Shown: one piece after another, positions 58,494 to 62,350 of the stretch
Numbering within the stretch: the stretch's first letter is position 1
Layout of the letters: each line of letters opens with the position of its first letter
The notes under the pieces: model-generated
Seen by the model: only the letters and a program-made list of their open reading frames with translations
Databases searched by the model: none
What the model was told of the DNA's origin: nothing
Translations under genes and position numbers: made by a program
Assembly (NCBI RefSeq): GCF_037081775.1
Contig: NZ_JBAMHQ010000001.1
Span: 186,001-250,000, forward strand
DNA length: 64,000 nt
Source: Haladaptatus sp. ZSTT2
GTDB taxonomy: Archaea; Halobacteriota; Halobacteria; Halobacteriales; Halococcaceae
Direction: 5' to 3'

Positions 58494-59282
58494 CTACACC
58501 GGACGCTCAAAGTCGTCGAGCAGTCCTTCGACCGCGCCTTTGAGCGCGCCCGTTGTACTCCCGATGTTGAGGAGTTGATAGCCGTTTTTCGCCTTCTCGT
58601 TTACATCGTCCATTCCGAAGCCGAGGCCACCGAGTGGCACGCCAGCGTCGACGGCCGCCGCACGGATGGTTTCGACGGCTTCTGTCACGTCCGCGTGGTC
58701 GAGTTCGCCGGGGTGGCCGTAGGCGACCGAGAGGTCGAGCGGCCCGGCGAAGACGAAGCCCAATTCCGGTACCGAAAGAATGTCGTCGATGGACTCGACG
58801 GCTTCGCGAGTTTCGATGGTCACGCCAATCACCGTCTCTGTGTCTTCACTCTTCACATAATCTTCTGCGAGCCCCCACCGCGCGGCGCGCGGATTTGCAA
58901 GCCCACGCTCGCCTGCGGCATCTTGGTAGCGAAACTGTGTCGCACTGACTGCGTCTTCGACTTCTCCCGGCGAATGTACGCGCGAGAGAAACAGGTTCCG
59001 CGTGCCCACGTCGAGCGCTTTCCTGATGAGGCCGGGTTCGGTTGAAGGCAACCGAACGAGCAATTCGGTGTCGACGAGTTCTGCTGCGCGGAGCAGTCCG
59101 GTCAAGCGCTCGCCGTCCCACGGACTCGGCCCGCCATGCTCAAAGTCAATCCACACGAAATCGAGACCGAGTTCGCCGTAGTACTCGACCAGTGTTGGGC
59201 TGTAGGTGTTATCCAGAATACCGAGGGCGACCCCACCCGATTCCAGCGTTTTTCGCAGTGAGTTCTGTCGAATGCGCTCCAT
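58494..59282 (-). CDS. HpcH/HpaI family aldolase
   Basis: 262 residues from MERIRQNSLRKTLESGGVALGILDNTYSPTLVEYYGELGLDFVWIDFEHGG; an open frame upstream runs through the structured element and is ignored. Class II aldolase landmarks are VWIDFEHGG, LLVRLPSTEPGLIRKALDVGTRNLFLSRV, VTIETREAV with the metal-binding Glu and FVFAGPLDLSVAYGHPGE with the metal-binding Asp. HpaI-type enzymes cleave 4-hydroxy-2-oxo acids to pyruvate plus an aldehyde; 2-keto-3-deoxysugar acid and malyl/citramalyl substrates are also known in the family. Confidence 0.92.
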   Translation of the reverse strand: MERIRQNSLRKTLESGGVALGILDNTYSPTLVEYYGELGLDFVWIDFEHGGPSPWDGERLTGLLRAAELVDTELLVRLPSTEPGLIRKALDVGTRNLFLSRVHSPGEVEDAVSATQFRYQDAAGERGLANPRAARWGLAEDYVKSEDTETVIGVTIETREAVESIDDILSVPELGFVFAGPLDLSVAYGHPGELDHADVTEAVETIRAAAVDAGVPLGGLGFGMDDVNEKAKNGYQLLNIGSTTGALKGAVEGLLDDFERPV

Positions 59283-59325
59283 ACACCCTACTCGCTGACA
59301 GGGGAGATAACTCTGCGTCGTTGGC

Positions 59326-59393
59326 GGATACCAGCGGCTCACCACCAGTTGAGTGCTTGGGCGTAAGGTCGCCCAAGCGGGCTGCTGGTATCC
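59326..59393. other. Cloverleaf-like inverted-repeat element upstream of the aldolase gene
   Basis: GGATACCAGC (59326-59335) pairs perfectly with GCTGGTATCC (59384-59393). Inside lie a perfect 9-bp hairpin GCTTGGGCG/CGCCCAAGC (59355-59363, 59370-59378; loop TAAGGT) and a weaker CTCA/TGAG hairpin (59338-59341, 59350-59353). It is not a tRNA: arm lengths and the T-loop do not fit. On the minus strand it would be in the aldolase leader, ending 44 bases before the ATG. It could be a structured leader, a small RNA or a mobile-element end. Confidence 0.55.
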
Positions 59394-59492
59394 TACGTCA
59401 GCAACCAAGCGACCGTTTGCACTTGCGAGGGAAGTACGTTCTGAAACTCACGTGATTCGAAGTGCAGATGGTACCGCGAACGCACCAATTCT

Positions 59493-59517
59493 ATATAGCA
59501 ACATACAGTTTATATGT
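59493..59517. repeat. Left arm of an inverted repeat bracketing the recombinase region
   Basis: Starting with ATATAGCAACAT, these 25 bases match the reverse complement of 62381-62405 at 21 of 25 positions, the first 12 exactly. The arms enclose 2.9 kb containing the relic sequence, the DUF5805 gene and the tyrosine recombinase. Confidence 0.5.
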
Positions 59518-59541
59518 GTGCGGTCGGACATGCCGTTTCGA

Positions 59542-59859
59542 CTATTTTCGCCACACTCGGCCACTTTGGGTGAACAATTGGGCGAATCGAGTGAACTGGG
59601 CTGCCAGTCGTGTCTCGATGAGATCACTCGAAGTCATACCACGGAGGTGAGCCCGCCAAAGTGACCGCAATCCAGTCTCCGGCTCTGACAGGCGTTCTGT
59701 GCGCATTCCCAAGGTGTCTGCATATTGCCCCAGATTCTCACCTGCGAGAGTGCACTGGACGCGCTGTGAGCCAGATCTTCTTCTCGTGGCTACGGCCTTT
59801 GGGAGACTACAGCAGCGGTGTAGCGTGTCGTGGCTGTGATCCCCGGTGCAAGCCAGCGG
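59542..59859 (-). pseudogene. Reverse-strand coding relic without a start codon
   Basis: The minus-strand frame is open for 105 codons between a TGA at 59860-59862 and a TAG at 59542-59544. It reads like protein: a His/Cys-containing start (ACTGDHSHDTLHRCCSLPKA), then AGENLGQYADTLGMRTERLS, then SLWRAHLRGMTSSDLIETRL and AAQFTRFAQLFTQSGRVWRK at the end. It has no plausible start near its beginning. Upstream frames are broken by stops. I take it as the 3' part of a decayed gene; family not recognised. Confidence 0.3.
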
Positions 59860-60723
59860 TCAGGCCTCACAAACTCACACGGGCGCCACAGGCGGCTGCT
59901 GCGCGCTTGTTGGCTGGTGCACTGAACGGGCACTGAGTCCACGCTGGGGCGCTATCGAGCGGTGTACCACCACTGTATCTGCCCCCGCGTGTTTCGGCAA
60001 TGAGCTCGGTGTATCGCTCGCGACAGGGCGCTATTCAACAGAAAGGAGATAGTCAGTGAGCAGCCATTCAAGTTTGAGAGTGAGCGAGGACTGCGATGTA
60101 CGTTCACACCTATTGCTAACATATAGCAGAGCAACCCGGCCCACAACCATCGTCGAATGAACAAACACAAATCGGTTGGTCAAACACCCACGTTTGACCG
60201 GCCGGAATTTTCACGTAATTCGATTCGTCACCCTAAAACCAGAAAATCTAGAAGCACGTTCTCGGCACGTAACTCCGGGGGTACACATAGTGAGAATGCA
60301 CCTCCGCGAAAACCGCCGAATTTTGCGCACTCACGCCGCTAATTCACGATATTTTCTTGGTTCTACGCCACTGGAATTCGAGGACAATTTAAATGAAAAT
60401 ATTCAGATAAATAGGGTGGATGTTGCGTTTTCTCAAGAGCGTACACGAGGCGAGATTATCGTCGCAATTTCCTCGATTGTTGGTCGGGAAAACTCGCGTG
60501 TTCTTCCCTCCGAATAGGCAGACCCATTGGCGAAAAATGACGGGTATCCCAGTCGGGCATCGGGCCGAGTTTCACCCGCTGATTTTCGATCAATTTGCCC
60601 CGCACATTTAACCAATCTCTATAAAATTTGACACAGTAGAATTTCTGTGATGATTGCGATGATTTGACTGCTCCGTTCGGTCGTAAACCAGAAATATTCT
60701 CAACCAGCAAAATTTGTTGTCTC

Positions 60724-60749
60724 TAGACCAACGCAATGGTCTATTTTTT
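60724..60749 (+). terminator. Hairpin followed by T run
   Basis: TAGACCA (60724-60730) and TGGTCTA (60737-60743) form a 7-bp stem with a 6-base loop followed by six T. The form is that of an intrinsic terminator, but no gene precedes it on the plus strand, so it may belong to the decayed element or to an unannotated RNA. Confidence 0.35.
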
Positions 60750-60841
60750 AGCAATAAATATAGGGCTATTAGGTCGAAAAAGCAGCACCATATTTATGGA
60801 TTAGCCTATATCTTGACCGCCATTTGAGTCCTGCAACTCGT

Positions 60842-60857
60842 GATAAGATACTTTATC
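60842..60857 (+). promoter_or_regulatory. Dyad overlapping the TATA region of the DUF5805 gene
   Basis: GATAA (60842-60846) and TTATC (60853-60857) form a dyad around the TATA-like ATACTTTATC, 50-60 bases before the DUF5805 ATG. A repressor bound there would block transcription; the encoded DNA-binding-type protein is a natural candidate for autoregulation (inference). Confidence 0.35.
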
Positions 60858-60906
60858 CAGTCATGTGGGGATACACTGATGTGGGTGGCGTGAGTGTTCA
60901 CATTCA

Positions 60907-61308
60907 ATGACTGACGTCGAGGTCGATACCGAGCGAACGGTGGTCAAAACGTATCTTCCGGCCTACCAGAAAGAAATTTGGCAGGAACACGCAGCCGAGC
61001 TGGACATGAGCCAAAGCGAGTACGTCCGGGCCATGGTACAGGCCGGAAGAAAGGGGTTCGAAGCCGACCGTTCGGAAGGCCGTTCTGCACCCGCGAACCC
61101 CGGGGGTGATGGCCTCGAAACACGCATCCTCGCACTCCTCGAAAACGGGAAATATTTGTCGTGGGATGCGCTCGTCGAAGAACTATCAAATTCGTTTGAA
61201 GACCGGCTCGAATCGGCGCTCGATTCGCTCCAGCAAGCCAATCAAATCCAGTACTCTGGACGCCACGGCGGGTACACCGTTTCCGGGGGTACGGATGGGC
61301 GTCAGTAA
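60907..61308 (+). CDS. DUF5805 domain protein, partner of the tyrosine recombinase
   Basis: 133 residues. The first 50 (VVKTYLPAYQKEIWQEHAAELDMSQSEYVRAMVQAGRKGF) look like a ribbon-helix-helix-type DNA-binding unit, the rest (LETRILALLENGKYLSWDALVEELSNSFEDRLESALDSLQQANQIQYSGRHGGYTV) a winged-helix-like domain. DUF5805 proteins are known in haloarchaea directly upstream of a XerC/D-like recombinase, as here: the recombinase ATG overlaps this gene's end by 14 bases. Probable role is DNA binding and control of recombination or of its own promoter. Confidence 0.85.
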   Translation: MTDVEVDTERTVVKTYLPAYQKEIWQEHAAELDMSQSEYVRAMVQAGRKGFEADRSEGRSAPANPGGDGLETRILALLENGKYLSWDALVEELSNSFEDRLESALDSLQQANQIQYSGRHGGYTVSGGTDGRQ

Positions 61309-62350
61309 CCAGACCGACGCGGCAGAAGACCCGGTTGGCTACTTCCTCCAGGACATGGTGTACCACGGCAAAAGCGAACGGACGAGGAATGCCTACGAAC
61401 GCGTTCTTCGGGAGTTTGAGGCGTTTTTAGCCGACGAGACGCGCAATCCACGCGGGACGGCAATCACCCCTGCCGAGGCCGGCCAACGCGACTGTATGGC
61501 GTGGGTACACACCATGCGCGGACAGCTCGCAGAGAGTACGGTTGCGACCTACGCCTCCTACCTCCACCGGTTTTACGCCTATATGACCCAGGTCGGGGCG
61601 TTCGACTCGAACCCCATGACGCTCGTCCGCGAGGAGATGGACGAACGCATCAACAAAGACCCGACGCGTCGCGAAATCGCGCTTCCCGCGATGCGCGAAT
61701 TCGTCCGAGGGCTCGGCCATCCCCTCGAACAGGCCGTTGTCGTCACGCTCCTCAAGACAGGGATGCGTGTTGGGGAACTCTGTAACGTCGATTGCAGGGA
61801 CATTCACCTCGAAGACGAGTGGGTGAAATCGACATACGAGGATACGATACGAGTGGCTATCGAGGCGCGACCTGACTCGCTTTTTGTCGCGAGCGAGCCG
61901 TCTCGTGGGCTGGTCGTAAACGGCGAAAAACGCACGGCCTCGAACAAGCGCAAACGAGATACGGTGATACCAATCGACGCAGAACTGCGTCGCGTCCTGA
62001 AACGCTGGCTCGCAATTCGGCCGGATGCGGCATCTCCGGCCGACCCGCTGTTCGTGAGCACCGGCGACGACTGGGGTAAACGATTGACTCCCGAAATGGT
62101 GCGCGGGATGGTCAAAACCCACGCACGGGAGGCGGGTTGGTATCGCTCTGGCGGCGGGGCAGAAGAGAACGTCACGCCGCACTACTTCCGGCACTTTTTC
62201 ACCACCCATCTTCGGGATGCAACGGGCGAGAGAGGCGTCGTGAAGTACCTCCGCGGCGATGTGGCGGAGGACATCATCGACACCTACACCCACAACTGGG
62301 GCGACCGCGTGCGCGAGGTGTACGAGGAAAATATCTATTCGTTGCTGTAG
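61295..62350 (+). CDS. Tyrosine recombinase/integrase (XerC/D-like, haloarchaeal)
   Basis: 351 residues. The SAM-like core-binding domain (about 10-120) contains YHGKSERTRNAYERVLREFEAFL and STVATYASYLHRFYAYM. In the catalytic domain Arg158 (LLKTGMRVGELCNVDC), His296 and Arg299 (TPHYFRHFFTTHLRD) and the nucleophile Tyr331 (DTYTHNW) are present. Where most family members have the LLGH histidine this protein has RGD, a notable change. Overlap with DUF5805 implies coupled translation. It could act on the chromosome dimer site or on a resident element; the bracketing inverted repeat favours the latter weakly. Confidence 0.92.
   Translation: MGVSNQTDAAEDPVGYFLQDMVYHGKSERTRNAYERVLREFEAFLADETRNPRGTAITPAEAGQRDCMAWVHTMRGQLAESTVATYASYLHRFYAYMTQVGAFDSNPMTLVREEMDERINKDPTRREIALPAMREFVRGLGHPLEQAVVVTLLKTGMRVGELCNVDCRDIHLEDEWVKSTYEDTIRVAIEARPDSLFVASEPSRGLVVNGEKRTASNKRKRDTVIPIDAELRRVLKRWLAIRPDAASPADPLFVSTGDDWGKRLTPEMVRGMVKTHAREAGWYRSGGGAEENVTPHYFRHFFTTHLRDATGERGVVKYLRGDVAEDIIDTYTHNWGDRVREVYEENIYSLL

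Follow-up and report, generated by a model that had tools for sequence, protein, structure and literature searches.

Within the window, that is, the whole 64,000-nucleotide stretch of DNA that was analysed, a densely paired segment at 59326-59393 stands before an aldolase gene. The initial annotation described it as a cloverleaf-like element that would belong to the leader of the aldolase message or, alternatively, would be a small RNA or the end of a mobile element. The question raised by the locus is therefore which structure is kept there and to what it is related. As judged from the sequences, the window copy is probably a divergent relative, located in an aldolase leader, of an undescribed set of transposon-related hairpins which stand alone in other haloarchaeal genomes (solos) and which are probably small RNA genes.

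Structure and conservation of the element upstream of the aldolase gene

The perfect 10-bp stem (Table 1) and the perfect 9-bp hairpin, GCTTGGGCG (59355-59363) with CGCCCAAGC (59370-59378), were both confirmed at their reported positions, and the third, smaller hairpin of the segment was weak. The RNA folding of the 68 nt resulted in -43.8 kcal/mol (z -6.0) for the plus strand and -37.2 kcal/mol (z -5.4) for the minus strand. None of 200 shuffles folded as well on either strand, which bears out the claim that the pairing is not expected by chance. With flanks (121 nt), the corresponding z values were -4.3 (1/200 shuffles) and -3.0 (0/200). The neighbouring gene was identified as an aldolase by PF03328 (E 1.6e-24), and its start at 59282 on the minus strand places the element upstream of it.

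Table 1. Features of the element and of the adjacent aldolase gene, in positions of the window.
Feature	Position	Strand	Remarks
Left arm of 10-bp stem	59326..59335	.	GGATACCAGC, in sense GCUGGUAUCC; follows P2; fully paired in the window and G017, lacking in G016
Right arm of 10-bp stem	59384..59393	.	GCTGGTATCC; overlaps the P1 loop and 3' strand
HpcH/HpaI-type aldolase gene	58494..59282	-	downstream of the element; its start and the P1 loop are 116 nt apart
P1, conserved hairpin	59380..59406	-	8-bp stem, 59406-59399 with 59387-59380; loop ACGUAGGAUAC (59398-59388)
P2, second hairpin	59355..59378	-	kept in 3/3 genus members; one double-sided pair change
Place of solo-type upstream block	59441..59452	-	weak likeness only (GTGAGTTTC); -54 to -43 from loop start

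Several known classes of elements were rejected. In agreement with the initial annotation, ARAGORN gave no tRNA or tmRNA gene in the window. No match to Rfam 15 was obtained in the window at the gathering score, and at E<=10 the region 59200-59500 gave one match only, which was at chance level (E 5.1); a tRNA and an Rfam family were thus rejected for the element. In the case of a dispersed repeat or MITE, several similar copies per genome would be expected, and a single place was found. The search for dispersed copies that the initial annotation had proposed returned nothing in the window genome apart from the element's own place and 18-20-base partial matches, and the stem pattern had one occurrence in this genome. 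The plasmid collection gave one 22-base chance match and the phage collection none. Further candidates were set aside as seemingly ill-matched in orientation, boxes or context, namely integron attC, K-turn/H-ACA and rolling-circle nick sites.

In a family-level search of 18 genomes, matches were obtained only in the window's own genome and in two others of the same genus, G017 (90% over 99 bases) and G016 (85% over 45 bases). In all three genus members, the element precedes the HpcH/HpaI aldolase gene and shares its strand, and the distance from the P1 loop to the aldolase start codon is 116-119 nt. The common gene order, as far as it was read, is AOR-family oxidoreductase, 120-121-aa gene, aldolase, element, gap, DUF5805-like gene and tyrosine recombinase, the genes being identified with Pfam and NCBIfam in the window and by eye in G016 and G017.

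The conserved structure is formed by the minus-strand (aldolase-sense) hairpins P1 and P2, not by the 10-bp closing stem. All three members keep P1, in which two pairs show double-sided changes, and in the window all 8 of its pairs are formed. The P2 loop reads (G/A)ACCUUAC in the genus alignment, and its ACCUUAC part would allow pairing with GUAGG in the P1 loop; this loop-loop helix stays a candidate because it never varies among the three genus members. In the alignment of the three sequences, all 60 cells of P1, P2 and the 5-bp loop-loop helix are paired. The three pairs changed on both sides belong to P1 and P2, and with three sequences only, 11 of 500 shuffles reached the score. The 10-bp stem is perfect in two species, those of the window and G017, and G016, which is devoid of it, keeps P1 and P2. 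Of the reported cloverleaf, the pairing is thus real and a structure is conserved, but the closing stem is not part of the conserved fold. As the 10-bp stem pairs with part of P1, the two folds are mutually exclusive. The determined energies were -43.5 with the 10-bp stem versus -41.0 with P1 forced in the window (difference 2.5 kcal/mol), and -48.5 versus -43.8 in G017 (difference 4.7 kcal/mol); the best fold of G016 contains P1.

The constant place and strand upstream of the aldolase, the complete pairing of P1, P2 and the loop-loop helix and the mutual exclusion of P1 and the 10-bp stem would be in accordance with a cis-acting, riboswitch- or attenuator-like leader, in which kissing P1 and P2 alternate with the long-range stem and alter translation. 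Within the window's genus only, it resembles riboswitch-like leaders in that a metabolic gene is preceded by a pair of hairpins whose loops are complementary and by a competing stem. However, there are three sequences only, one of which is without the 10-bp stem, and the pattern with both loops was confined to the window's genus (3 of 391 genomes of the class). None of 64 haloarchaeal aldolase loci outside the genus carries the element (up to 2 kb upstream, E<1). In contrast to riboswitch-like leaders, there is no Rfam match, and outside the genus the hairpin has no fixed downstream gene and is tied to no single gene. Such a leader is therefore unlikely to be the main explanation, and the place upstream of the aldolase is kept within the genus, no link to this gene being seen beyond it.

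Between the element and the DUF5805 gene (60907), about 1.5 kb of the window (59410-60906) are without a convincing gene, and a comparable gap of 1.7-2.0 kb, from the aldolase start to the DUF5805-like gene, is present in G017 (L008) and G016 (L009). In the window, the DUF5805 gene and the gene of a XerA/XerC-like tyrosine recombinase which follows it occupy 60907-62350. Since a similar pair adjoins in G016 and G017, it looks resident and not recently inserted.

Solo hairpins in other haloarchaea

A covariance model of the three genus sequences (R1) was searched on 391 genomes. At E<=0.02, it matched 12 genomes, comprising the three of the genus, five in which other paired stems bear an identical loop (G243, G082, G273, G162, G056) and four chance-looking ones. 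R1, built from the genus alone, thus found solos in other families. The same 391 genomes were searched with a 27-nt model (R2), which matched 83 genomes at E<=0.1; exact-loop hairpins were present at 20 of the 50 R2 places read (19/30 and 1/20), and G136, outside these 50, recurred as a solo among the matches of the third model. The latter (R3) was made of 16 solos from the upstream block to the tail, without IS sequences, and was searched on 170 genomes of the richest family, where at least 85 genomes were matched at E<=0.01. Among the matches listed, a strong class of 20 was distinguished, with 59.9-97.1 bits, one match per genome and the exact loop in all; 13 of these were used in building the model and 7 were new. 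The weaker class had 52.8 bits and below, often with several matches per genome, a few rows representing the opposite strand of a solo. R3 tolerates loop changes, yet the 20 strongest of the matches listed had none. The invariance of the loop is partly a matter of definition, because the members were collected by the exact loop, and the pairing was partly selected for, as R2, R3 and A4 were built from the matches of earlier models.

The exact-loop hairpins collected amounted to 27, three in the window's genus and 24 elsewhere (G249 included), from four families. The occurrence is thus not limited to one site: the structure is kept in all three genus members, and in the sets searched the same loop, GACGUAGGAUACC, is placed on covarying stems in 24 further haloarchaeal genomes with unrelated gene neighbourhoods. 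In a plain search of the 170 genomes, the 13-mer GACGTAGGATACC was located at 23 places in 22 genomes, compared with 0 for the reversed-pattern control. Twenty of the 23 places lie in a hairpin, 19 with 6-7 of the 7 inner pairs and one with 4, and these 20 have the upstream block and a GAAGC-type outer arm, shifted by one base in one copy; the remaining three, with 2-3 of 7 inner pairs, are unrelated. The viral contigs gave 22 matches to the two-loop pattern and the exact 15-mer loop in 12 stretches. At the 15 viral loop places inspected, a comparable stem was absent by eye, and a script over the loci collected picked up a single hairpin, in L078, which has two mismatches in its loop and is attributed to chance. 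Solo hairpins were not found described in Rfam or, by title or abstract start, in the open-access literature.

The stem of the solos is two-tiered, with an outer GAAGC/GCUUC part and a variable inner part which carries the loop. In the 16 solos outside the genus, 90.0% of the cells are paired and 10 of the 15 pairs are changed on both sides. The double-changed cells numbered 42, compared with 14.4 in shuffled data (0/500) and at most 11 when slid, and RNAalifold alone predicted the same helix with 14 pairs. The covariance check suggested by the initial annotation was thereby positive for the solos as well as for P1 and P2 of the genus (3 pairs). The identities, determined with one copy per genus (11 copies), were 0.96 for the outer 5' arm, 0.78 for the upstream block, 0.52 for the spacer and 0.43-0.44 for the flanks.

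The upstream block, CnAC-G--TTTT, is located at a fixed distance of -54 to -43 from the loop start. In the 11 copies, the C, A and C at -54, -52 and -51 and the T at -43 are constant. The T-run precedes the stem foot by 26-29 nt, a distance at which a haloarchaeal TATA box (given as TTWT in PMC4983044) would direct the start to this foot. The block could be a promoter with the transcription start at the hairpin foot; however, of 23 solos, only 11 have a strict TTWT where this box is supposed to be. Each genus has other genes around the solo, and in 12 of 16 cases the gene to its right is encoded on the opposite strand (crude ORF caller), which argues for the solo as a gene of its own. A complement of GUAGG was detected in the 30-nt tail of 8 of the 23 solos versus 3.1 in shuffled tails (fraction 0.0045), these sequences being related, and in 2 of 23 upstream controls, which hints at a loop-to-tail pseudoknot.

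The covariation of the stem fits folded DNA as well as RNA, and the hairpin could be a DNA-level element, such as a cruciform or a protein-binding site used in recombination or replication. The upstream block at fixed spacing and the tyrosine recombinase gene, about 2 kb off in the window, G016 and G017, are in line with it. However, no recombinase was seen by eye among the listed neighbours of the other solos, a promoter also explains the fixed spacing, and a fixed loop with varying arms is unusual for recombinase sites. A DNA-level role is thus very doubtful.

The surroundings of some solos are of separate interest. In L174, L175 and L176 (G336, G170, G362), which belong to one genus, the solo lies between Orc1/Cdc6-like and binding-protein-like genes, as identified by eye. 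The Rfam search over five solo loci gave no match on a solo, a tRNA match (L149:1201-1285, 44 bits) some hundreds of bases away from the G291 solo, and one sub-threshold match elsewhere, Acido-Lenti-1 (L146:1440-1468, 23.6 bits, E 0.093). Downstream of the solo of G354 (L146) there is a palindrome, AAGCCCACGACTTCAGTCGTGGG, which is reminiscent of IS200/IS605-type ends.

Relation to IS5-type transposase starts

The solos outside the genus align over 101 positions, in the antisense direction, with the beginning of transposase genes of the IS5 type (leader and first ~25 codons), the start codon being absent from the solos. With four IS5 transposase starts, R3 resulted in 52.8, 49.0, 47.4 and 45.9 bits over positions 1-101, and with more distant IS copies in 28.8-34.3 bits. 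At the 31 weaker R3 places read (10 + 21), the same upstream block and hairpin were recognisable, in decayed form in G043, and the hairpin was opposite in strand to the transposase start (MSKISRF...LAKNAVG and relatives). The transposase N-terminus was visible at 17 of 21 places and in three ORF lists (crude ORF caller), and the family was determined to be IS5 (NF033579, E 2.2e-79; also DDE_Tnp_1).

In the IS message, as read from the sequence and the folds, the hairpin holds the transposase start codon in its loop, which is likely a translation control of the IS itself. In the IS5-type elements of L212-L241, this hairpin is formed by the leader and the first codons. The solos share with the IS5-family start hairpin (NF033579) the hairpin and the upstream block, colinear over 101 model positions; in contrast, they have another loop, are without a start codon or transposase, and occur once per genome. 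As to the locus of the window, an IS5 insertion sequence was rejected, since a DDE transposase would be expected beside the hairpin and the window genome has no transposase relative at E<=1e-15. G017 has none either, and G016 has one 77-residue match.

In the transposase frame, the solos are still N-terminus-like (e.g. YPTSRTVRFDRRCVALAKKAVERR); they have lost the start codon, and many of them contain stops. Transposase relatives at E<=1e-15 were found in 18 of the 26 solo genomes. Both the likeness and the relatives would be expected if the solos were functionless relics of IS5-type transposase genes with a start hairpin kept by chance. However, the same start-less loop is present in all, despite different loci in different genera, the stems remain paired through double changes, and the upstream block and spacing are kept with flanks at baseline. 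Decay with chance retention is therefore improbable.

Compensated stems, a recurrent loop and a block at fixed distance in a start-less copy indicate selection on the hairpin, most simply as a small RNA. There is good support for the set of hairpins and for its link with IS5 starts: outside the genus, the structure, covariation and distribution of the solos and their IS relationship were observed. It is probable that the solos are RNA. The best explanation overall, held tentatively and somewhat short of probable, is that the solos are small RNA genes which are tied by ancestry to IS antisense RNA and which their hosts have retained, with a possible cis role in the window's genus. The solos would descend from IS antisense RNA or share ancestry with it. 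The RNA would run in the orientation of the loop ACGUAGGAUAC and be antisense to the start of the transposase gene, and the loop would contact a partner, which may be a protein, the start hairpin of a transposase or some other message. By hand, CGACGUAGG could be paired with CCUAUGUCG at the transposase start in 9 pairs, one of them G-U. The likeness of the solo loop to the transposase start is due to common ancestry and does not by itself prove targeting, and as 8 of the 26 solo genomes, that of the window included, have no transposase relative at E<=1e-15, a transposase target is not always present.

The closest known systems, taken here from the cited portions of the papers, make an antisense small RNA plausible. 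In Halobacterium salinarum, 10 antisense RNAs over the 5' ends of transposase genes were described (PMC6523106), in Haloferax volcanii 134 antisense transcripts over transposase genes (PMC4983044), and a control of transposition by antisense RNA and SmAP1 has been reported (PMC10134880). The antisense RNAs of H. salinarum and H. volcanii have the same orientation to the transposase start as the solos; in contrast, they are encoded inside the IS, whereas the solos stand alone, without a transposase, and are known from sequence alone. In Pseudomonas putida, a structured leader together with two small RNAs governs the transposase of ISPpu9 (PMC8450116). The combination of a structured transposase leader with antisense RNA is similar, but the IS and the domain of life are other ones, and the antisense RNA of ISPpu9 is said to favour expression. 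The cited portion of that account has no solo copies, and those of PMC6523106, PMC10134880 and PMC8450116 hold no description of the solos.

Both further alternatives of the initial annotation, a small RNA and a mobile-element end, are thus relevant through the solos and their IS5 relation, but not as dispersed copies in the window genome. If the preferred explanation as host-kept small RNA genes is true, an archaeal structured small RNA would be traceable across several families by one fixed loop, and a transposon control hairpin turned host RNA would be available as a testable case with clear covariation. The motif is concrete enough to be sought in existing haloarchaeal transcriptomes. A more far-reaching version is distinctly unlikely: stand-alone RNAs originating from the antisense strand of the IS start hairpin, with a frozen loop, would act in trans on transposase messages as a CRISPR-independent heritable RNA immunity against IS5, and one genus would have built such an RNA into an aldolase leader as a switch.

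The window copy in comparison with the solos

The window copy carries the loop of the solos on a paired inner stem, and the outer GAAGC/GCUUC stem is absent in the window's genus. R3 gave 25.1 bits for the window copy (E 0.011, positions 48-74), which is below many IS copies, 26.8 bits for G017 (44-78) and 29.1 bits for G016 (1-101); the match spans the upstream block, of which the genus shows a weak likeness, in G016, not in the window or G017. A second R3 match in the window genome (L260, 22.5 bits) is without such a loop. The tie to the solos is drawn because of the 13-base loop with the inner stem, the similar place of the block, and R1, which was made of genus sequences only and led to the solos. 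Due to the missing outer stem, the window copy is called a divergent relative and not a member.

Under the small RNA explanation, the genus copies would share the descent of the solos, and the hairpin together with P2 may act in cis in the aldolase leader via the competing 10-bp stem. This explanation is weakened by the energy preference for the 10-bp stem in the window and G017, as well as by the low R3 score obtained for the window copy. The antisense relation to the transposase start is given by homology for the solos outside the genus, and for the window copy it would go only via the loop and the inner stem.
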